This document shows, one piece after another, positions 1,611 through 54,900 of a stretch of 64,000 bases of DNA. Source of the DNA: Brachyhypopomus gauderio (lineage: Eukaryota > Chordata > Actinopteri > Gymnotiformes > Hypopomidae); assembly GCF_052324685.1 (NCBI RefSeq), contig NC_135213.1, positions 37,191,707-37,255,706 on the forward strand. The letters run 5' to 3'. Positions within the stretch are counted from its first letter, which is position 1. Each line of letters begins with the position of its first letter. Both the position numbers and the translations under genes were made by a program. The notes under the pieces were generated by a model that worked only from the letters and a program-made list of their open reading frames with translations, did no database searches and was not told the DNA's origin.

Positions 1611-1925
1611 TCACGATGTACGCACCGATGGAAGTTCACGATGTACGCACCGATGGAAGTTCACGATGTACGCACCGATGGAAGTTCACAATGTACATAC
1701 CAAAGGAAGTTCACGATGTACATACCAAAGGAAGTTCACGATGTACATACCAAAGGAAGTTCACGATGTACGTACCAAAGGAAGTTCACGATGTACGTAC
1801 CAAAGGAAGTTCACGATGTACGTACCAAAGGAAGTTCACGATGTACGTACCAAAGGAAGTTCACGATGTACGTACCAAAGGAAGTTCATGATGTACGTAC
1901 CAAAGGAAGTTCACGATGTACGTAC

Positions 1926-1935
<10 letters not shown>
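1611..1935. repeat. 25-bp minisatellite, 13 copies, made of an msh3 exon/intron junction
   Basis: Plus-strand unit is TCACGATGTACGTACCAAAG plus GAAGT; 13 units start every 25 bp from 1611. The three leftmost units carry CGCACCGATG variants, the next three CATACCAAAG. On the minus strand each unit reads ACTTCCTTTG|GTACGTACAT..., which is the last 10 bases of msh3 exon 17 plus the 5' splice site; the last unit (1911-1935) overlaps the real junction at 1926/1925. Confidence 0.95.
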
Positions 1936-18698
<16,763 letters not shown>

Positions 18699-19919: not shown

Positions 19920-22703
19920 TTTTTTATTTTCAATAATACAAAAACAAGGCTTCCCACTTCTAGACAGGTGAAGAGTGAACACACTGATGGGAAAAAAATT
20001 AATTCACATCATGTGAGACCGTGAGTGTTAACAGAGAACAGAAATCCTCCCTGTGTGTGTGAAATTCCACATCAGTATCTGTGACGTGATCACTGGATAG
20101 AACATACACTCCCTCACTGGGAACCAGTTTTTCAGTAAACTACTTTCAACATGGTAAAACTTCGAAACCCAAAGTGACACTGCTTTAGTCAACAACAGCA
20201 TTTGAAATAAATAAGAATAAATGATAAATGCTTGATCATGCCAGAAGCACCACTAATGCTGGACAGAAGTGTCACATTCCCTTATCAGACTCCATAAGAT
20301 CAAAATACATGATCTATTTTTTTGTGATGATTGCTGAAAACTCTTCTGGCAACACGAGAGAGGAGTATTGCATAACCCTAGTACTGATGAGTCTACAAAA
20401 ACGACTTGCATCTCCGAACTTGGAGTAAACAGACAGACACACCTATATTGCTTATACTCTGCAGCAGCGGTTTTTAAACACCGAGTGCTGTGTGTAAAAC
20501 ACCACAGCTCAAATAATCCCAAAGCCACGTTTAAACTGAAGGAGGGAGATGTGTGATTTGACCATGTGGAGTGATCTGAACTGCATTAGCGTGGCCCTAG
20601 CTTAATAACAGTAGTTTCTCTTAAATGTGTAGTGTGAATGAGAGGTGTTCTGCTGATAGCCTCACAGACTGTATTTGGCTTAGGAATAAGTTAATTAAGA
20701 GAATTACTTGTTAATTAATTACTGTTATCTTGCTAAGCTTATGTCTCCAACATTATGCACATTAAATATAGTTCAGACTATTGCAACAGTAGAATTTTGC
20801 TCTGTGGTGCATCTAGAAACCCCTGAGCATACACATCAAAACCACTGTAAATACTTAAAAGATGCTGACGAGGGAAACAGGACACAAAAGGTCAACATAC
20901 ATATGACTGCCAAAATAAAAGTCTGATCACTTTGGTATAAGGATTCCAAGGTAACAGGTCTGATAATGAGGAAACGTCCAGGTCAAAGACAACTATTTCC
21001 ATTTTAGATCAAACTTTCCACCCGAGTCCCATGAACACTCACCTAGTAGACAAGTGCATTTCACTCATTACACAACTTTGTCAGAAGGGAAGTCAAAAAT
21101 GAACCCATCACACAACACTTAGGTACATACTTTGCAAAGTGCCTATTAATACCGAACATGTCAATTTGGACAGAGTTAAAGCCAGTCTGGCCCAGAGGAT
21201 TCGTTGTAGATTGTGATGGAGTTTTTGTGTGCATGTGCGCACATGTATCATCTACTGTAATAACAGACACACGTGCCCTGAATCAAACCAAAATGAGATG
21301 TGACAAGGCATTCAAAGCACAACATATGTTTGTCATTCTTGACAGACTTTATAAAGTGTGCCAAGAAATACTGGTATATAGATATACCAATTTATAAACC
21401 CAGATATTTGTATTTGGAGTGGATCAAAAAGCGATGCTGTGTTTGTGGTTGGTACGTGGCGTGACCCAGGAACCCCAGGAACACAGTCAGGGTCAACAAT
21501 CAGGCTTTCTGTAGCCAGCCAACACCCTCCCGTTCACGTACATATACATACATGAAGACCCATACATGTAGACCCATAGCAAAATGGAATCAAATCCATG
21601 TTTTAAAAGGGGATGGGCACATCAAGAGGGCCCTGGTGTGAATTTCCGGGTAAGAACATCCTGTGGAAAAACAGGGATGTGCATATTCAAAACACAAGTC
21701 ACTCTCTTCTAAATAATCAAACGACTGAGCCACTGCTATAAGAGACTGACTGCGTTTTCTCTGTTCAGTTTCATAAAGACATTAACCTACATCCATCGCC
21801 CAAATCATGACAACCGAGAACAGGAGAAACCATCCTCAAAAAAAAAAAACCCAAACGTAAAACCACCAGCACTAAGCCATAAGCCATACATGTCAACTTC
21901 ACAAATGCCTACGACATATGGAAAAGGAACTGAAAATATACATTGTATTCTATGTCATGGCACAAGACCACATAGGGATTGTACAGTGTTTATGAAGTGT
22001 TCAGACAATGTAACTGGTTAGGGTCTTCAAAAGAAACATGACAAAGCCATTTATGCCTGCTTTTCAGAAGCTGGTTCATGTGTTACAGCAGAAAGAACAA
22101 GAGACCATAGTTTCAGACTGATCTCTCAACCAGCGTAAAGCTGAGAAAGTTATTCATCTCTTAAGCTACTTAGTAACATTCACTTTGATGAGATGGTACT
22201 ACTGAAAATGTCTAATAACTTCTTAGATTGTTGCTTAAACATCACGAAATATACAAAACTATTTTTTTTTTAAGTGTAAACATTTTTTAATCTGGATGCC
22301 CGATGTTAATTACATAAGGAGAAAGTATATAAATAAAATATGAACTATAATATAATTAGATTATTAAAAACAGGTTTTTATTAAAAAATAAAATAATAAT
22401 GAAGCTAGCATTCATCAGTTGTTATTAAGTTACTGTTTACATTTGCTTTTTTACAAGTGTCCTGTTGAATTATAAATATCTATAGATATGCAGAAATATT
22501 TTTCCTGTCCTGTTTTAATGTTACATTCACTTCCTGTGTTTCTTTAACAACATAGACCATACCAAACACAGACACAAACGGAGACAGAGACAAACACAGA
22601 GAGACAAACAGACACAGAGACAGAGAGACACACTTCCCTTCTAACCGAATAACCTTTGTCAGCTTTGCAGTGGCTCTAGCAGGGATGAGGTGTGAGGTGT
22701 TCT
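19920..22703 (-). other. Probable long 3'UTR of ubac1
   Basis: Downstream of the ubac1 stop there are about 2.8 kb with no convincing exon on either strand. The minus strand carries an AATAAA-type signal near 19922-19930 (TTTTTTATTTT on plus), which would be a fitting end of the transcript. This is inference from signal position and absence of other genes; shorter transcripts are possible. The stretch is AT-rich with only short simple repeats (GACAGAGA-like at about 22565-22630). Confidence 0.4.
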
Positions 22704-25700
22704 CTACGTGCGATTGAGTGTCTGGAAGATTCTGGAGATTTGGAGCATCACTGGTCCGGTCTCGGGATCATTCATCCACTGGGTGCTGTTCAGAGGATTC
22801 TCAAGCATGTCCTCAAACGCTGCAGGCCCAATGCAAACACATGACAGAGGCAATAAACGTCACATGACACGGGCATTCAACTAAAGCCACAAACGAATAT
22901 TCATACCCCACTAAAACCTAGTGACAACAGCTATTAAAGTCTTGAGTTCACACCACATGGTGGATTAAAGTGAGAGAGACTTGTTATTTCACTTTAGGCT
23001 TTCTCACTATAATCACAACACATGCATAAAAGTGGCACAGTCCTCCCACATTTAAGAGCACAAAAAATCAGGAATAAAAGCCGATACCACTCTGATCGTG
23101 TGGATGTAAGTGGAAACATCAGGGCACAGACTCACCCAGGAGTGTTTTAGGGTTCGTAAGTCCCAGCTGTACCACAGGGTTCTCCAGTATGGCCTGAAAG
23201 AGGGGACTGTTGGTATCGATACCCTTATCTAGATCTTCAGGAGACGGCTTTCTGTCTCCCAACAACCACTCACACTGCATAAAAACAGACCCACAAATAA
23301 AACCATGCTCCGTTTGTTTTTCTTATTATTTAAGCAGATGTTTAGTCTGGAATATCTAGAATATAGAATATAGAATGATCTTGTTTTTAGAGACGTGAGG
23401 GCAGAAGTTTTATTCTTATTACCGATACAAACTAAAACTAATCCTGGACTTGAACAGGACTTACAGCAGCATCCTGTTGATTGTTATTGACGCGTAACGC
23501 ATCGATCACTTCCTTCTCATCAAAGCCCATCTCCATGAGCGCGATCACGGCCTGCACACAACCACAGGCAACGCCCAAGTATACGTCGAGAAATAAAAAC
23601 TGATATTAAGAATAAGAAATACAATAATACGTGCAATGTTTAGCCTTCCTTTTACATCCCAAAGTAAAAACAGTTCACTTGTAATTGTGGGTAATAAAAT
23701 GCTTTGTTCTATAGTTGTGTTTTTCGTTTGCACAGAGCACAACCACAGGGGAAATTAAGATTCTCCAGCTGTGACAAAGCCTTTCATGGCGCACGTGGGA
23801 AACACGCATGACTCTGACCCGCGAGTCCGGCCTGAACTCCCTTTTCCTGCGGATCCTTTTGAAGATCTCCGTCAGTTCGTCCTGCCTGGTCTCCTCCGTG
23901 CCGGCCTGGGGCGGAGCGCGTGCCAGAGCCCCCAGGGCAGACGAGCCGGCTGCTGCAGACGCACCGGCCGCAGCGCCTCCTCCCTGAGCGTCCTGGCCTG
24001 ACGGGGGCACGTCGACTGCGGGGTCATCCACGTGCTCAATCAGCCACTCCATAGCCTGCGTCACGGACATACTGCGAGGGGAGCAGCTCCGATTAGTGCG
24101 TTCAACAGCAGGGGCTCTGCTGATGACAGCGGTCCAATGGAGTTAGTTCATATCATGTAAGGCTAGTGTAAGGCAAGCCGGAACACCTCTGGAGCTGCTA
24201 CGAGTTATCTGCTTTTCAGCCAAAACGATTAAGGGGTTAACGCCATCATTTTGTTCCAATTTGTGCACACACTGACTAGCAACAAAGGCTGCCTGTGGGC
24301 CAGCACACACAGGTGGTCAGACTCCCGGGAAGGTGCGAGCGTTCTCACTGGTTTAAACGCAGCGCCTTGGTCGCACGGCTCTCTGGGAAGCCCATCTCAG
24401 TGAGCTGCTGCAGGGCGGTCTCATCCACCCGCTCCTCCTCGTCCTCGTCCAGCATAGCTTCAACAACGAGAGAGTGGGACAGAGAGAGGGAGGAGGCCTT
24501 AATACTTTATAAAGGAGGCGGGGGCAGCGAAAGCATTCTACCTGCAGCATGTTTGATGAGCGTGCCGACCTGGGACATACCATTGGCCTTTTTGAAGAGC
24601 TCGACGGCATCTGGATTCAAGGCGAGGAGTTTCTGTGCTACCTCAATCAGCGATACCAGTATTTTCCTCAGTTCTGTTTGGAACTAGTTCAAACAGAAAG
24701 AGAAATATTAATTCAAAACACAAAACGATGTCTTGCACTACAGTGGAATAAACTGCGATTTTCGTAATCATCTTTCTTCACGCCGTTCAGTGCATACGAG
24801 ACGCCGTTGCACCGTCTCGTCCAGTCGGTGTGTGGTGCGCGTCATTCCGGCGGTCAACACTCACGTCTCTGATGTTGTGTTGAGTCACGGTGCGGTCAGA
24901 GTGTTGAGTGGAGAGGTTTGCTGTGGCTTTCAAGATGGCGTCCTTATCAGGAGCCTTACTCTCCTGCTTCTGTTGAACGTCAAGGGCGATTAAACCAATC
25001 GGGCTCAATCAACCTAGCATGTTGAACAACATTCGCTACGTGCAGGTTACCCAGAATGCATGAGAAATGTCAGGCAATCGCGAGGAGTTACGGTACCTTC
25101 TCTTCTGCAGATATGTCGGTCACTTTGGGACGTGTTGGGGGTGGCCTCTTCTTTATCAACAGCAAGCAATCTTTAAAAAAATGAAAAATTCAAATTTTAT
25201 CACTTCTAAAGCTTTGTGGAGAAAAAGTCAGTGAAACGGCTAATGTATCTAAAGAGAAAACATGATGAGTCTATTCCATACCTTTATCTTTAAGGTTTTC
25301 TTCTGCAACAGTCCTGGCCTCATTGAGAACCCTCTCTGTAGCTGCATGGATTAGTTTGTGGTGCGTTAAGGTCTTTGGGTCTTCTAGACTCCCATGTACA
25401 CACTGCCAGTGAAAGGCAAATTTTGAATAAAATTTTAGAATGGTATAAAAAATACAATATTACATTTCTGCACCATTTTGGCCAAGACAGTAAACAGTGA
25501 ACAGCAATCTACTAAATTTTATGAACGACTCAAAGTCGAAATCTCAATTTAATTTCTTGACTTTTATGTTTTGTTTAGTACTCCTGAAACGAGTACATAA
25601 ATCTAATATTTCCCTTCACGTTTATTCCTTCAAGCTGTTTCTGGAGAGCCCAACACATTAGTAGACTGAAAATTGGACATCAGTGCCATTTTTTCCAAGT

Positions 25701-41000: not shown

Positions 41001-43850
41001 GCTCGCAAGGCATCCGAAAGACAAGTACGCGCAATCATGCACACTCACGTGTCCAACTCCAGCATACAAACTACACAAACGCTATTGGATAACAGAATCT
41101 TGATGTGTGTGATGTCACAAAAAGACCAAAGTGTCTGTTTTAATAAGGCAGTTAAGGTTATGTTTCTATGTTCATAAAAAAAAATTGCACCCCGTCTTGG
41201 CTAAATTCGAATGCGTCCAGTAGAGCAATGAGGGTTCTGATGTTTTTACTCCACTATTTATCCGTTTTCTCCTCAGTCACTAAGACCCCAGCCTGAGTCA
41301 GGACCCCAAAGAGGTACTGAAATCTGAAATTGAAATGGTTTCAAATAAAAAAATACACCTGTTAAGTTTTAACATTTACATTCTCTTTCAGCCGTGCGAC
41401 ATAATACATACTCCGATTCTCCTTTGACCGTGGCTCAAATTCTTGCTCTGAGAGCTCTGCAGGTAAACAGTCCTAAGCCAGCCAATATCGAACAGCCTCC
41501 ACCACCCCCACAACCAACCAAGCAGCCACAGCAGGTTTTGCAGACTGCTACCCAGATCATGGGGCCTACACTGGTGGTCCCTCAGACTTGTATTACCCAG
41601 TCAACGCATCTACAGCCTGTTGGACAGGGAATTGTACCTTTTCTACAATCACAGAACACTTTAGAAGTTTGTCAGCCAGTACTGCAGTTGGCCGTACCAG
41701 TAGAACCTCAAACCACCGTACCTCTTACAACAAGCTCGGCAGAAGTGGAGACACCCAAAATAGCCCCATCTACATCAACATCTACCCCATCTACTACTGT
41801 ACCTCCTGTAACAATCTCAGGAGAAGGCAGGACCTCAAAACGCATCCGCAGGACCACAAAGAAGGCCCAAGCTTTGATGGAGAATTCTAAAAGCAAGGCT
41901 TCCAAGCAGAAGAATGTTGAAGATTGCAAGGGTCATAGTGAGGCGCCAACGTCTACATTACCACAAACTACAGCTTGGATTCTAACTCCTGCAGGTCTGA
42001 TGCCTCTGGCTGGAATTCAAATAACACCTTCTGGTACCCTTGGTAATCAGAACCAAGTGATGCCTAACATTGTTCCTCAAGTGCCAGTCATAGTGAACCA
42101 AAATAGTTCCTTCGCATTTGTCAATACTATGCAACCGAGCAATCCATCTACTGTCTTCCCAGCTCCTGTTGCACCTGTAACTACTGTTATGTCTCCATCA
42201 GCTAAAACAAATGTTGGTCAGAACCTTTTCGTTTCCACCGCCTCAAACCAGCCCAGGGCTTCCTCACTTCCCTCGATCAATAAAGACCCCAACGTCTCAA
42301 CCGCCATCACAAATACCCATAGTGCTCCTGTGGATACTAAAGTACCCACCTTTCTTAGTAGCTCTGCCGTTCGGTCTAAAATCTCATGTAGTCAAGGTCA
42401 ACCCCTCTTGAGTGTTGTCCCTCAACTGACAATTCAGTCACCTATCATAGTGAACCAGAATGGATCCCTCACTCTTCTCTGTGACGCTGTACCCACAGTT
42501 CCTTTAAATTCCCCTGTGACTCCTGCCACATCCATCCCCATCGGATCAAGTCAAAGATCTGTACTGTCATCAGGTTTGCACACCACCAAAAGCTTTTCGC
42601 TACCTTCAGTCAGTAACCTCAATAATCCTTCAGTTCTACCAGTCTCTCCTAGTGTTTTGACCATTCCTAGTCCTGTAATTCAGAGGCCTTGTCCTTCTTT
42701 GCCAAGCGGTCAGAATCAAATAATTGCATACCCTCAGGTGGTATTTCAGCAGCCAGTCGTAGCAAAACAGAGTATCTCCATGGCACTCAATGTTGTAGAC
42801 CCAAATATAACCTCTAAACCTTCACCCAGCTCTGCAGCACCCAGTAAAAACCCTCCACCATCTGCCACAGAGTTCCCCAAGGACTTAACTGCGTCCTCTG
42901 TTAATAATGCACTTATTGAATCTCCAAGTTATGTAATAAAACCACCCAGTGTCCCTTCAGTCCCATCTTCTGTGGCTCTAAGTAAAATTTCTATAGCTAC
43001 ATCACATGCTACGCAAAAGAAGAATTCTGGCTCCCAGGGCTCAGTCCCCGTCCAACACGGCTTACCAGTCAATGTAAGAAGGCTGCCCAAGAGCCAGGTG
43101 TGTGCTAATAAATTCGTTGGACACACTACATCTAGTTGCCAAACTTTGCTTAAAACACAAGCCCCTCAAGTTAAAAAGCAACCCCTTCAACCAGCAGCAG
43201 CCACGTCTAACCCTAGTCCTAAACCTCATCCTCCACATTTTGATCCAAACCTGATGTTCCTTGAGCATCCCGATCAAGTGCAGCACTGGATTAAAGGGAC
43301 CGGTGGGATCTCGCTGCCTTTTCTGGAGGACAAAATGCCTTATCTTCCCCCTTTTGTCAGCAACGTCTGTGCACTTGCCTCTTTACTCCAAGCCAAGGAG
43401 ACTTTGCTAAACAGAGCAGCGCAGCTTCTACCCGAAGAACACCGTAGTGGGAGTGGAGAGGACGACAAGATGGCGGCTGTCCGTAAACTGGTGTCCGACA
43501 GGTTCAAAACCAACCCGGCGTACTTGCTTCTGAAGGCACGCTTCTTGTCATGTTTCACCTTGCCTGCCCTTCTGGCCACCATACATCCGTGCAAGCAGTC
43601 GCAGGGTGATGACGTAAGCGAAGATGACTGCAAGGACCACGTCAGGCTCAAGATTGCAGTGAGTTCTGTATGGTGCTTGTATTGTTGCAAAAACAACGTA
43701 GCATGAATGTGTTTTAATGGATCGATTGGATTTTCACATTTTCTTTTGCAGGGATCTCTGCTCTGCAAAAGTGAGCGAGAAGAGTCAGAAGAACAGTTTA
43801 CTGGGTTCAGCGGAGGAGTGCAAAATGGCCATCATGCATTGCAGAGATAG
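30810..43850 (+). CDS. snapc4: snRNA-activating protein complex subunit 4 (SNAP190), complete
   Basis: Largest SNAPc subunit; binds the proximal sequence element of snRNA promoters for RNA polymerases II and III. Exons: 30810-30930, 31028-31074, 31161-31263, 31397-31431, 31562-31705, 31815-31925, 32083-32161, 32589-32670, 32784-32885, 33157-33229, 33324-33488, 33658-33808, 33933-34039, 34254-34348, 34478-34572, 34734-34813, 34894-35367, 40137-40229, 40464-40695, 40802-40872, 40959-41024, 41277-41313, 41392-43658, 43752-43850. All phases join, giving about 1642 residues (human 1469). Myb half/repeats are obvious: KSAWTQDEIEKLGEIA, KKYWTKEEDQVLRDLVEK, KRGPWSKEEDQ, KKGIWSNEEVKLLKSLVEKY, with tryptophan spacing typical of Myb. 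A basic/acidic tract follows (KKRRVRSHSRGSRRKRRK). Exon 23 (755 codons) encodes a Ser/Thr/Pro/Val-rich low-complexity region. Intron 17 (4.8 kb) hosts transposons. Confidence 0.95.
32300..32515. mobile_element. Probable old interspersed repeat
   Basis: Segments such as AATTGCCAGGTGTAGGTGTC and CTTGCTGGACTCCTGCAATC resemble a common non-autonomous fish repeat. Located in snapc4 intron 7. Recognition is from memory and boundaries are not defined. Confidence 0.35.
35488..35592. repeat. Left arm of a ~100-bp inverted repeat around the hAT element
   Basis: Contains AAGTTCCACAGAAGCAAAAG and ATTCTTAGCATCAAGAGCAG. The same sequence, inverted and highly similar with an 11-bp gap, is at 37668-37757. 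Confidence 0.9.
35757..37273 (-). mobile_element. hAT transposon relic, 1517 bp, with 8-bp target duplication
   Basis: Terminal inverted repeat TAGGGATGCAAAT at 35757 and ATTTGCATCCCTA at 37261-37273; flanked on both sides by CTACAGAC (35749-35756 and 37274-37281), the 8-bp duplication diagnostic of hAT. Subterminal regions are rich in CGATTAATCG motifs on both ends. On the minus strand a broken BED-finger region (about 36660-36850) and a transposase core fragment (36379-36567: CHYTDENWQLKSAVL, VHDNARNIV) remain, separated by stops and deletions, so it is a non-autonomous ZBED-type relic. Inserted in snapc4 intron 17. Confidence 0.92.
35893..36129. mobile_element. MITE nested in the hAT relic (237 bp)
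   Basis: Ends are inverted copies: TACTGCTCAAAAAAATTAAG GGAACAC at left and GTGTTCCCTTTATTTTTTTG AGCAGTGTA at right, with TA at each edge, consistent with a Tc1/mariner-type TA insertion. No coding capacity. Confidence 0.85.
37668..37757. repeat. Right arm of the ~100-bp inverted repeat
   Basis: Inverse complement of 35488-35592; CTGCTCTTGATGCTAAGAAT and CTTTTGCTTCTGTGGAACTT are the shared cores. Confidence 0.9.
37940..38073. repeat. Poly-G (27) followed by (GT)37 microsatellite
   Basis: An uninterrupted run of 27 G at 37940-37966 and, 32 bases later, about 37 GT units at 37999-38073, in snapc4 intron 17. Confidence 0.97.
38390..39680. mobile_element. Possible DNA element with ACTCAAGTA/TACTTAAGTA ends
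   Basis: Sequence TACTCAAGTACTGAAAGTAA AAAGTACAAG near 38410-38443 and AGTAAAGTACAGATAC...AGTACTTAAGTACAGTAG near 39651-39690 look like the two inverted ends of a common non-autonomous fish element. The interior is without recognisable coding. Ends and family are uncertain. Confidence 0.4.
39694..39810 (+). mobile_element. 3' fragment of an interspersed repeat
   Basis: GGTGCTTTGTGACAACAACT followed by GTTGTAAAAAGCGCTATATG AATAAAATTTGCTTGATTAA TTGATTG is a tail I recognise from widespread fish retroposons. Confidence 0.55.
40291..40376. repeat. 43-bp direct duplication
   Basis: Two identical adjacent copies of a 43-base segment beginning CTGTATAGCAGATTACCATA, in snapc4 intron 18 between exons 40137-40229 and 40464-40695. 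Confidence 0.95.
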
Positions 43851-48011: not shown

Positions 48012-48720
48012 GGCCCACCTGTTGGAGCTGTATTAGTGTATGTTGTCCCTCCTGTTGGAGCTGTATTAGTGTATGTTGTCCCACCTGTTGGCACTGTATT
48101 AGTGTATGTTGGCCAACCTGTTGGAGCTGTATTAGTGTATGTTGGCCCACCTGTTGGAGCTGTATTAGTGTATGTTGTCCCTCCTGTTGGAGCTGTATTA
48201 GTGTATGTTGTCCCACCTGTTGGAGCTGTATTAGTGTATGTTGGCCCACCTGTTGGAGCTGTATTAGTGTATTCTGTCCCACCTGTTGGCGCTGTATTAG
48301 TGTATGTTGGCCCACCTGTTGGAGCTGTATTAGTGTATGTTGTCCCTCCTGTTGGAGCTGTATTAGTGTATGTTGGCCCACCTGTTGGAGCTGTATTAGT
48401 GTATTCTGTCCCACCTGTTGGAGCTGTATTAGTGTATGTTGTCCCACCTGTTGGAGCTGTATTAGTGTATGTTGTCCCACCTGTTGGAGCTGTATTAGTG
48501 TATGTTGTCCCACCTGTCGGAGCTGTATTAGTGTATGTTGTCCCACCTGTTGGAGCTGTATTAGTGTATGCTGCCCCACCTGTTGGAGCTGTATTAGTGT
48601 ATGTTGTCCCACCTGTTGGAGCTGTATTAGTGTATGTTGTCCCACCTGTTGGAGCTGTATTAGTGTATGTTGTCCCACCTGTTGGAGCTGTATTAGTGTA
48701 TTCTGTCCCACCTACTGGCG
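48012..48720. repeat. 33-bp minisatellite, about 21 copies
   Basis: Unit core is CTGTTGGAGCTGTATTAGTG followed by a variable 13-base part (TATGTTGTCCCAC, TATGTTGGCCCAC or TATTCTGTCCCAC). Because 33 is a multiple of three and the unit lacks stops in several frames, long ORFs open on both strands; these are repeat artefacts. Lies between card9 and ccdc180, ending about 250 bp before the ccdc180 ATG. Confidence 0.97.
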
Positions 48721-51900: not shown

Positions 51901-54900
51901 CACTTTAAGGTTAGAGGCCTTAGAATTTCCATGGCTTCCATTAGTAGTTTATTTATATTACTGAAAATCAGACTCACCCTGTTTATACACACAGAATGAA
52001 TTATCTACCTATGGATTCACACCAGATGAGATACAGGACCTTGTTAATGCTGAACTGTTGCCTGTAATTGACAAGTTGCAGACAGGAGGAGAGGAGCGTT
52101 TATCAGTAATGGATGTAAGTTCAAGGAAATAACCTTGTGATGGTCTTTTTCACTCTTTGTTTTATAAGTGCAATAAATTGGATTATGCAATAACTGAAGT
52201 TCCTACATATGGAAATAGTTCCCTGCTTCCTCTTTGATGCGGATGACAAAGACTTTGCTTGACACCACATCCTTCTGTAATTAAATCGTTTAAATAATGT
52301 GTTTTTTTTTCACTTTACAGAAGGCCTTTGAGGATTTGGCCAAGACTGCCACAGTTTTGAGTAAGTCGCTGTTTGAGTTTGTGCACGGTGCTGCTCACCT
52401 CTGGGATGTGCACAGAGCCGGGCTCCAGAAACGAGAGCAGCAGTTGCAGGATCAGCTCGAGGAGGTCCGAAGCAGCTTTGAGCTGGACAACCAGGTGGGG
52501 CACTGCTCCTGGTTTTGTTTGTTTTCCTCATGTCCGTAATGGTGAGGTTCCTTGGTAGGTTCTTTGTGTGATAACATGATGATATCCCCTGTGCTACTGG
52601 CCACTGTTTTGTTTGTGACTTTGTTTCCAGAAGAAAGAGGCTCACCTGGATGTGATGATGGACAAACTCAGGCAGGAGAGCACAGAGGAGGCCCTCAAAG
52701 CTGCACTAGAGAAGATCATTACTTTTTTAGAGGAAGTTAAGAATGGGTAATCAGAAACGTATTTCTTCTTTTTGTGTTTGTTTTTGTTGTTTTATTGCAG
52801 TCAACATATTATGTCCTAAAGCAAAGCTAATTTAATTTTCACCTTCTGTAGATATGTCATGCACTATAAGGAGGAAGTTGACACGTTGGAAAGTTATCCT
52901 GCAATGGTTCTGGAAGAACTACACACATACCGCTCAGCAGTCAGCCGTTACTTCGGTATCAAAGAAGTTTCCCTCCAGGTTGATCCCATATGTTGTACTC
53001 CAAAATAAATAAATAATACCTCCCCCACTTGTAAGCATTTCTTTGAGGTTCTTCGGTTAAGCCCACGTCTATGTAAGCATTTCTTTGAGGTTCTTCGGTT
53101 AAGCCCACGTCTATGTAAGCATTTCTTTGAGGTTCTTCGGTTAAGCCCACGTCTATGTAAGCATTTCTTTGAGGTTCTTCGGTTAAGCCCACGTCTATGT
53201 AAGCATTTCTTTGAGGTTCTTTGATTAAGCCCATGTCTATTTTATATTGCAGAGTCTGGAGGAACTTCACGTGCTTTATCCCACGCTTATGCTGGGTGAG
53301 TGAAAATTTCACTTCTCTTGTGGCCTTGTGACCTTTTGATATGCAGTGGCAGTTTATTAGAGATCTCTGTCTTATAGGTACATTTGTAAGTGTTCATTGC
53401 CACACAGTTGGTATGCTCAATTTTGTGAGCTGCCACTGGACACTGATAAGGGATAATGCAAGTTATGTATGTAAACCGAGGCATTGTTTATAATAAAGTG
53501 AGGTTCTTCGTAAAGTGGGTGAGTATTTATATTCTTAGCTTACTGTTCGTGTTTTTTTTCTTCAGACACCAGTCAGATTTCCAATATTAAGAGGAAGAAA
53601 AAAATTGTAAGTCTGGAGAACAAGTGTCCTAATGATTCAGACCTCTCTGAGGTAGGCATTTGTGAATGTTTCTGTCCACCATACCCTATTGTGTCCCTGC
53701 AAGACATATAGACAGTATATTTGTTTTTGTTTACTAGGATGAGCCTGATTATTTCCCACAAGAATCCCGTGACACTCAAACCTGTGAAACTTTCACAACT
53801 GCAAAGGGAAATGTGTTGAGTTTCCAGAGTTTTGCGACACCATGTGATGGAGAAGCTGATTCAAATCTAGAGGAAGTTAAGCTGGCATTATACCCAAAAA
53901 GTCTTGTGGCCGAATTGCAAAAAGTGTAAGAAAATGATGTTTTAGAGCAACAAAATAACATTTGCCACTTGTTATTTCACTCTCTAAGTTGACTTTGTGT
54001 TCTTATGTCAGTGTGAGAGAGGAATTCTTCAGTCACCTGGAAGAGAGATATCACGCAGTTCTAAATAACACAGTGACCATCATGGAAGCCAAGAGGGAGG
54101 AGTTAAAGTCTAAACTAGAGCTCCGCCTCCACCTCCACCAGCCTCGAGCCAAGAGGATTGAGATGGATATTCACAATGTCAGAGCAGGTGTGTTCCTGCT
54201 GAAACTCACTGTACTAACAGTACTAACTTTTACAAGCTTAGACCTCACTTTCAAACTGAAAGAAGTGAAATCTAAGGCCTTAGAGATAGGAGGAGGAGAG
54301 TCATGGAGAATCAGGCACGCAGAGGTGGTGGTGGTGTTGAGAGGGGAAGTTCTAGGAAGTTAGCTAAGGGAACATTCCAGGGGCATCCTTACTCCCATAC
54401 TTGAGTTATTACATAACTCGATTAACTCTAATACTAGCACGTTATTAGAGATGTGAACAAGTTTCTTATAAAATTACAGTAATTAAAATGGATCTGTGTG
54501 TGTGTGTGTGTGCGCATGTGTGTGTGACGTGGCCAGCTGAACTGGTGTTGCATCGAGACCGTGTGGACAGACACTGCAGAGGTATTGTACAGGCCTTAGC
54601 TAAACTTCGCACTGACTTCAGTGAGCTGCAGATCAGACAACACGCAATAACTGAAGACTTTCGCAGTCAAATCCACAGCATGGAGGATACTTTTAACAGT
54701 GCTACCAAATCTGATAAGTAAATACATCCCTGCTTATTCAGTTATGACAACAATGAAAATGTTGACGTACTTGTGCACTGATGAGCTACTGCTAGATCAC
54801 AAGTGTTCATCCACTCTTGTGAACAGGCTTGTGAAACTCAGTGCTTCGCTACAAACCAACTTTGCTGAGCACATGAATGTCATTCAAGAATCACAGAGGC

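Follow-up and report, generated by a model that had tools for sequence, protein, structure and literature searches.

The question raised by this locus is whether a minisatellite that straddles an exon/intron junction of msh3, and thereby multiplies the 5' splice site of the exon, affects how the gene is spliced or is largely carried along. The window, by which we mean the whole 64,000-nucleotide stretch of Brachyhypopomus gauderio DNA analysed, carries msh3 on its minus strand, and the array occupies positions 1611-1935 on that strand. TRF reports it at 1610-1935 as 13.0 copies of a 25-bp unit with 96% matches, 0 indels, and a score of 547, the highest in the first 18 kb, and its period-25 self-match is 0.967, compared with a maximum of 0.343 among 1000 mononucleotide shuffles; the array and unit described in a sequence-only reading of the window are therefore real features of it. 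Read in the register of msh3, copy 1 begins at 1935 and copy 13 ends at 1611. Copy 1 (1911-1935) consists of the ten bases that end exon 17, ACTTCCTTCG, and 15 bases that begin the intron, GTACGTACATCGTGA, with the GT of the true donor at 1925/1924, and the twelve extra donor-like copies, 2-13, fill 1611-1910, with their GTs starting at 1900, 1875, 1850, 1825, 1800, 1775, 1750, 1725, 1700, 1675, 1650, and 1625. The donor hexamer is GTACGT in copies 1-7, GTATGT in copies 8-10, and GTGCGT in copies 11-13, the last three of which carry ACTTCCATCG, and unit position 9 is T in copies 2-10 and C at both ends of the array. The array is variable at six unit positions, arranged in blocks along its length (copy 1, copies 2-7, 8-10, and 11-13), and all 13 copies retain G at -1, G at +1, T at +2, and G at +5, a usable-looking predicted 5' splice site in each. 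A DNA search of phages gave no match, and the exact 25-bp unit had 0 matches in viral contigs and 0 in genome contigs, from which the window's own genome was possibly excluded.

Copy 1 holds the true donor because the alignment of exon 17 to Msh3 ends where human intron 17 begins. Exon 17 (1926-2042, minus strand, 117 nt) extends from base 3 of codon 773 to base 2 of codon 812 in the numbering of a 1137-residue Msh3 chain, and its acceptor reads CACTCCAG directly before CACC. Positions 2041-1926 translate to 38 residues, the 38 whole codons of the exon, which align gap-free to residues 774-811 of the 1137-residue chain and match residues 558-595 of a 918-residue Msh3 chain (E 8.4e-13 to 1.3e-12 across the chains); we take both chains to be the human protein. 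A longer stretch, 2185-1889, aligns to the same Msh3 site and extends two residues further. The final two bases of exon 17 are bases 1 and 2 of codon 812 (c.2435), and the human MSH3 intron 17/exon 18 boundary is placed at c.2436-1 in an excerpt of PMC10798947, which together bear out the earlier assignment of the unit to the end of exon 17 and the start of its intron.

Upstream of this junction, exon 16 (2194-2258, minus strand, 65 nt) has the donor CAG/GTCTGT at 2193 and, by eye, an acceptor CCCCAAG/TTCCTC, and it joins exon 17 in phase (AAC AG/C ACC) to give Ser-Thr-Lys, the same as in Msh3. Its match to Msh3 is weak (E 0.18), with Msh3 ranked first and the piece collinear, and the matches of exons 14 and 15 have E values of 6.8e-17 and 1.7e-14, respectively; for exons 14, 15, and 17, Msh3 is the sole PDB match with E <0.01. 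Exons 14-16, which were numbered by counting back from exon 17, are open, ordered along Msh3 residues 633-774, and, judged by eye, joined in phase. Further upstream, 8704-8567 and 6564-6160 match MutS_III with E values of 2.8e-13, above Pfam's cut-off, and 2.1e-05, under it. Pfam, searched with E up to 10, returned no family for 4084-4272, 2067-2345, or 1889-2185 and unrelated weak families alone for 3595-3909 (E 0.075 and 0.13), and the msh3 pieces confirmed by search all lie between 8704 and 1889. No exon 18-like piece was seen by eye among the open stretches of 1-1600 that encode pieces of at least 38 aa, and exon 18 is probably located outside the window. Because exons 14-16 are open, collinear, and in phase, with MutS_III matches upstream, msh3 looks intact and functional from its sequence, and it would follow that at least some transcripts should use donor 1.

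How far the other twelve sites might draw splicing away from donor 1 depends in the first place on their strength. Donors were scored in bits with a human matrix, on which the consensus scores 8.63. Donor 1 scores 1.46, copies 2-7 score 1.66, copies 8-10 score 2.03, and copies 11-13 score 1.33; nine of the 12 decoys match or slightly exceed donor 1, and three fall slightly below it. The U1 duplex energies, computed in the same order, come to -6.5, -6.3, -6.7, and -6.4 kcal/mol. All 13 donors are weak and practically equal by score, and the twelve extra donor-like sites counted in the earlier reading are thus present, with strengths close to that of the true one. On both strands of the window, 5.4% of 8129 GTs score at least as high as donor 1, and among the other msh3 donors, the exon 14 site scores higher (5.17) and exons 15 and 16 have donors of comparable weakness (0.02 and 1.62). 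The weakness of donor 1 relative to the consensus would make help useful, and one could imagine the array as a helper, in which clustered weak U1 sites behind donor 1 strengthen the recognition of exon 17, the more readily as positions -1, +1, +2, and +5 are the same in every copy. We do not take the constancy of these donor cores to prove selection, however, as the chance that six variable positions all fall outside those four is 0.31, and the similarly weak donors of exons 15 and 16 have no array in the TRF list. A helper role consequently appears very unlikely.

It is clear from the frame of exon 17 that full Msh3 is obtained only from donor 1, because donor 2 shifts the frame and donors 3-13 pick up a stop. 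The frame computation agrees with the earlier statement that use of the second donor inserts 25 nt and causes a frameshift, and the in-frame TGA that had been placed at 1888-1886 is indeed there, on the minus strand within copy 2, where it is met if the array is kept or if any of donors 3-13, i.e., 11 of the 12 decoys, is used. Reading through the array in the frame of exon 17 meets a TGA in each third copy, four in total, and the stop is therefore a property of the unit and not of copy 2 alone. The stop at 1888-1886 would remove the remainder of Msh3, and in the human protein, according to an excerpt of PMC10798947, loss of what follows exon 17 means loss of the ATPase and dimerization regions. 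The insertion of an in-frame peptide through donors 4, 7, 10, and 13 (+75, +150, +225, and +300 nt) was considered and rejected, since these keep the frame but contain the TGA. A new intron or micro-exon inside the array is likewise ruled out by the count of AG dinucleotides on the msh3 strand of its 325 nt, which is 0; the first AG downstream of exon 17 ends at 1594. Lacking an AG in the array, the decoys can act as splice sites only in competition with donor 1. The earlier idea of copy-number tuning amounts to a rheostat, in which more copies bring more decoy use, more nonsense-mediated decay, and less Msh3, such that array length would set mismatch-repair activity. In its favour, the decoys are near-equal to donor 1, each of the 12 either breaks the frame or introduces a stop, and the human CBS repeat offers an analogue.

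Folding predictions bear on this possibility. The array was folded with 160 nt on each side (645 nt) in a thermodynamic calculation that takes neither proteins nor co-transcriptional order into account. The donor core GTACGTAC is a palindrome, identical to its reverse complement; all 7 of its occurrences in the window fall within the array, and the predicted fold pairs array copies donor to donor. The mean unpaired probability of donor 1 falls from 0.27 at n=1 to 0.11-0.14 for n=2 to 13. Since this drop saturates at two copies, a step is predicted and a graded dial is not favoured; a graded copy-number effect via folding was accordingly rejected, and the single drop followed by a flat course speaks against the rheostat, which we consider unlikely although not negligible.

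A separate possibility is that RNA structure itself matters, with the palindromic GTACGTAC pairing the copies into a long stem that would hide donor 1 together with the decoys. In its favour, besides the restriction of the palindrome to the array, the predicted unpaired probability of donor 1 is 0.13 with the real array and 0.26 (SD, 0.08) with tandem shuffled units in place of the 12 decoys, and 4.4% of 160 such controls reach a value as low. On the other hand, when units were shuffled, 10.8% of 5000 contained an 8-nt palindrome, and the stability of a perfect 13-copy array was equalled or exceeded by 39.7% of 300 shuffled tandem arrays, such that the folded array is not unusually stable; the disregard of proteins and co-transcriptional order by the calculation also counts against this explanation. 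The predicted effect of folding on donor 1 may be taken as a weak lead, and we see only a slim chance that structure accounts for the locus.

The position of the array on a splice donor is unremarkable for a sequence this rich in repeats. Six arrays with at least 3.9 copies and a unit of at least 14 bp cover 1537 of the 64,000 bases (2.4%), in a hand-made list that omitted a qualifying seventh array at 22566-22632 (16 bp x 4.3), with which the coverage becomes 1604 bases (2.5%). Under the rough assumption that the first ~18 kb hold some 17 msh3 donors, ~0.6 of them would be covered by an array by chance, before any selection against overlap. The blockwise variants and the C common to both ends are the ordinary pattern of an expanding minisatellite, which supports a passive reading. 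The ordered blocks, and the precise placement of the array on the true junction, also argue against an assembly artefact or a wrong copy number; assembling a near-perfect 325-bp array from short reads is difficult, but an error of this kind is scarcely credible here.

Taken together, we consider it probable that this is a largely passive minisatellite at the msh3 junction, with some mis-splicing that may slightly lower msh3 output. A 25-bp tandem duplication straddling the exon 17/intron 17 junction would have come first and would then have expanded to 13 copies. With the end of the exon and its true donor still provided by copy 1, the gene could stay intact, and the twelve other copies would act as intronic decoy 5' splice sites that compete for the join of exon 17 to exon 18. 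Most transcripts would presumably use donor 1 and a minority a decoy, and the decoy mRNA, being frameshifted or stop-carrying, would be expected to enter nonsense-mediated decay. This largely passive reading draws on the Msh3 homology that fixes the junction unit, the low surprise of the placement, and the precedent of human CBS. Against it, twelve near-equal decoys could take more than a minority share, and the array is predicted to reduce the accessibility of donor 1. In a study of duplicated strong 5' splice sites, the intron-proximal copy was reportedly favoured, which would cut against donor 1. The locus is in this respect a natural experiment in 5' splice-site choice, with 13 near-identical donors 25 nt apart in an acceptor-free stretch, of which the first alone is productive, and donor usage here would tell whether the exon-proximal or the intron-proximal site wins at equal strength.

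The identity of the gene invites a further, self-referential reading, in which array length would determine exon 17 mis-splicing, mis-splicing the level of MutS-beta, and that level the rate of change of tandem repeats, including this array. If true, repeat instability would be set by a heritable, feedback-coupled dial located within msh3 itself. We regard this as extremely unlikely. The earlier argument that MSH3 itself handles the loops of this array is weak, because the whole 25-nt unit exceeds the loops that MutS-beta is usually described as handling.

Several other repeats and elements were observed in the window. A pure TG repeat of 20.5 copies at 4278-4318, ending in TGTTCTAG, lies directly before the acceptor of minus-strand exon 14. 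At CFTR exon 9, UG repeats before the acceptor bind TDP-43 and promote skipping, and by analogy the exon 14 repeat may be a better candidate than the minisatellite for repeat-length-dependent splicing of msh3. The intron that holds the minisatellite also contains a second array at 1069-1153 (22 bp x 3.9; TRF), which on the msh3 strand repeats GGGGTGAGA four times, with a predicted U1 pairing of -9.3 compared with -6.5 for the true donor, and adjoining it, AAGGTGAGG at 1048 has the top matrix score among the 189 GTs scored in 1-2400. By eye, GTTTTGGCTCTTTGTTGCTCGCACC and its complement form a 25-bp terminal inverted repeat around ~210 bp at 1153-1363 in intron 17, in the manner of a small MITE, and another palindromic element lies at ~334-440. 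Larger minisatellites are found by TRF at 48014-48713 (33 bp x 21.2) and 53030-53240 (42 bp x 5.0), and long open frames run through both because their units are divisible by three. A 777-residue open stretch at 41373-43706 (plus strand) and a UBA-like stretch at 23675-24142 (minus strand) look, by eye, like parts of other genes.

The msh3 array is a further case of a known phenomenon and has the same anatomy as the VNTR of human CBS, which we take to lie at exon 13/intron 13 and at which alternative donor use was reportedly found (Lievers 2001). The CBS repeat is described in excerpts of PMC2630376 as a 31-bp VNTR, c.1444_1467+7(16_21), of 24 exon and 7 intron bases in 16-21 copies, whose units differ by single-base variants, and it is associated with reduced CBS activity according to the title of Lievers 2001 as cited there. 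As far as those excerpts go, its unit, like that of msh3, joins an exon end to the start of its own intron and so multiplies the 5' splice site. The two differ in gene, lineage, and composition of the unit (24 + 7 bases in CBS, 10 + 15 bases in msh3), and whereas the CBS VNTR is polymorphic and, by title, associated with activity (PMC2630376), the msh3 array is known here from one sequence. A second CBS variant, c.844_845ins68, is a duplicated intron 7/exon 8 junction in which one splice-site copy is strongly preferred (PMC2630376, same excerpts). It resembles the msh3 array as a junction duplication within a gene and differs from it as one single 68-bp duplication. The site repeated in c.844_845ins68 is an acceptor, though the passage in PMC2630376 speaks of donors. 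Competing 5' splice sites 11 nt apart, one with a frame-shifted product, are regulated by SRSF1 in DOK7 intron 4 (excerpt of PMC5585400). Close alternative donors and a frame-shifted product are common to DOK7 and msh3, but the DOK7 sites are two, non-identical, and without a tandem array. Human MSH3 itself has a tandem repeat in coding exon 1 that is linked to repeat-expansion disease; it shares with the msh3 array that it is a tandem repeat in MSH3 and differs in sequence and position. Intron gain by tandem genomic duplication also multiplies splice sites (excerpt of PMC4974935). It requires a new acceptor and donor inside the duplicated stretch, and with 0 AG in 325 nt the msh3 array can yield no intron or exon; the intron of msh3, moreover, pre-exists. 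In the literature consulted on repeats over splice donors and on intron gain, the CBS VNTR was the only repeat of this design met. If copy number affected msh3 output, the array would stand with CBS as a second case, this one in a gene on which repeat stability itself depends.
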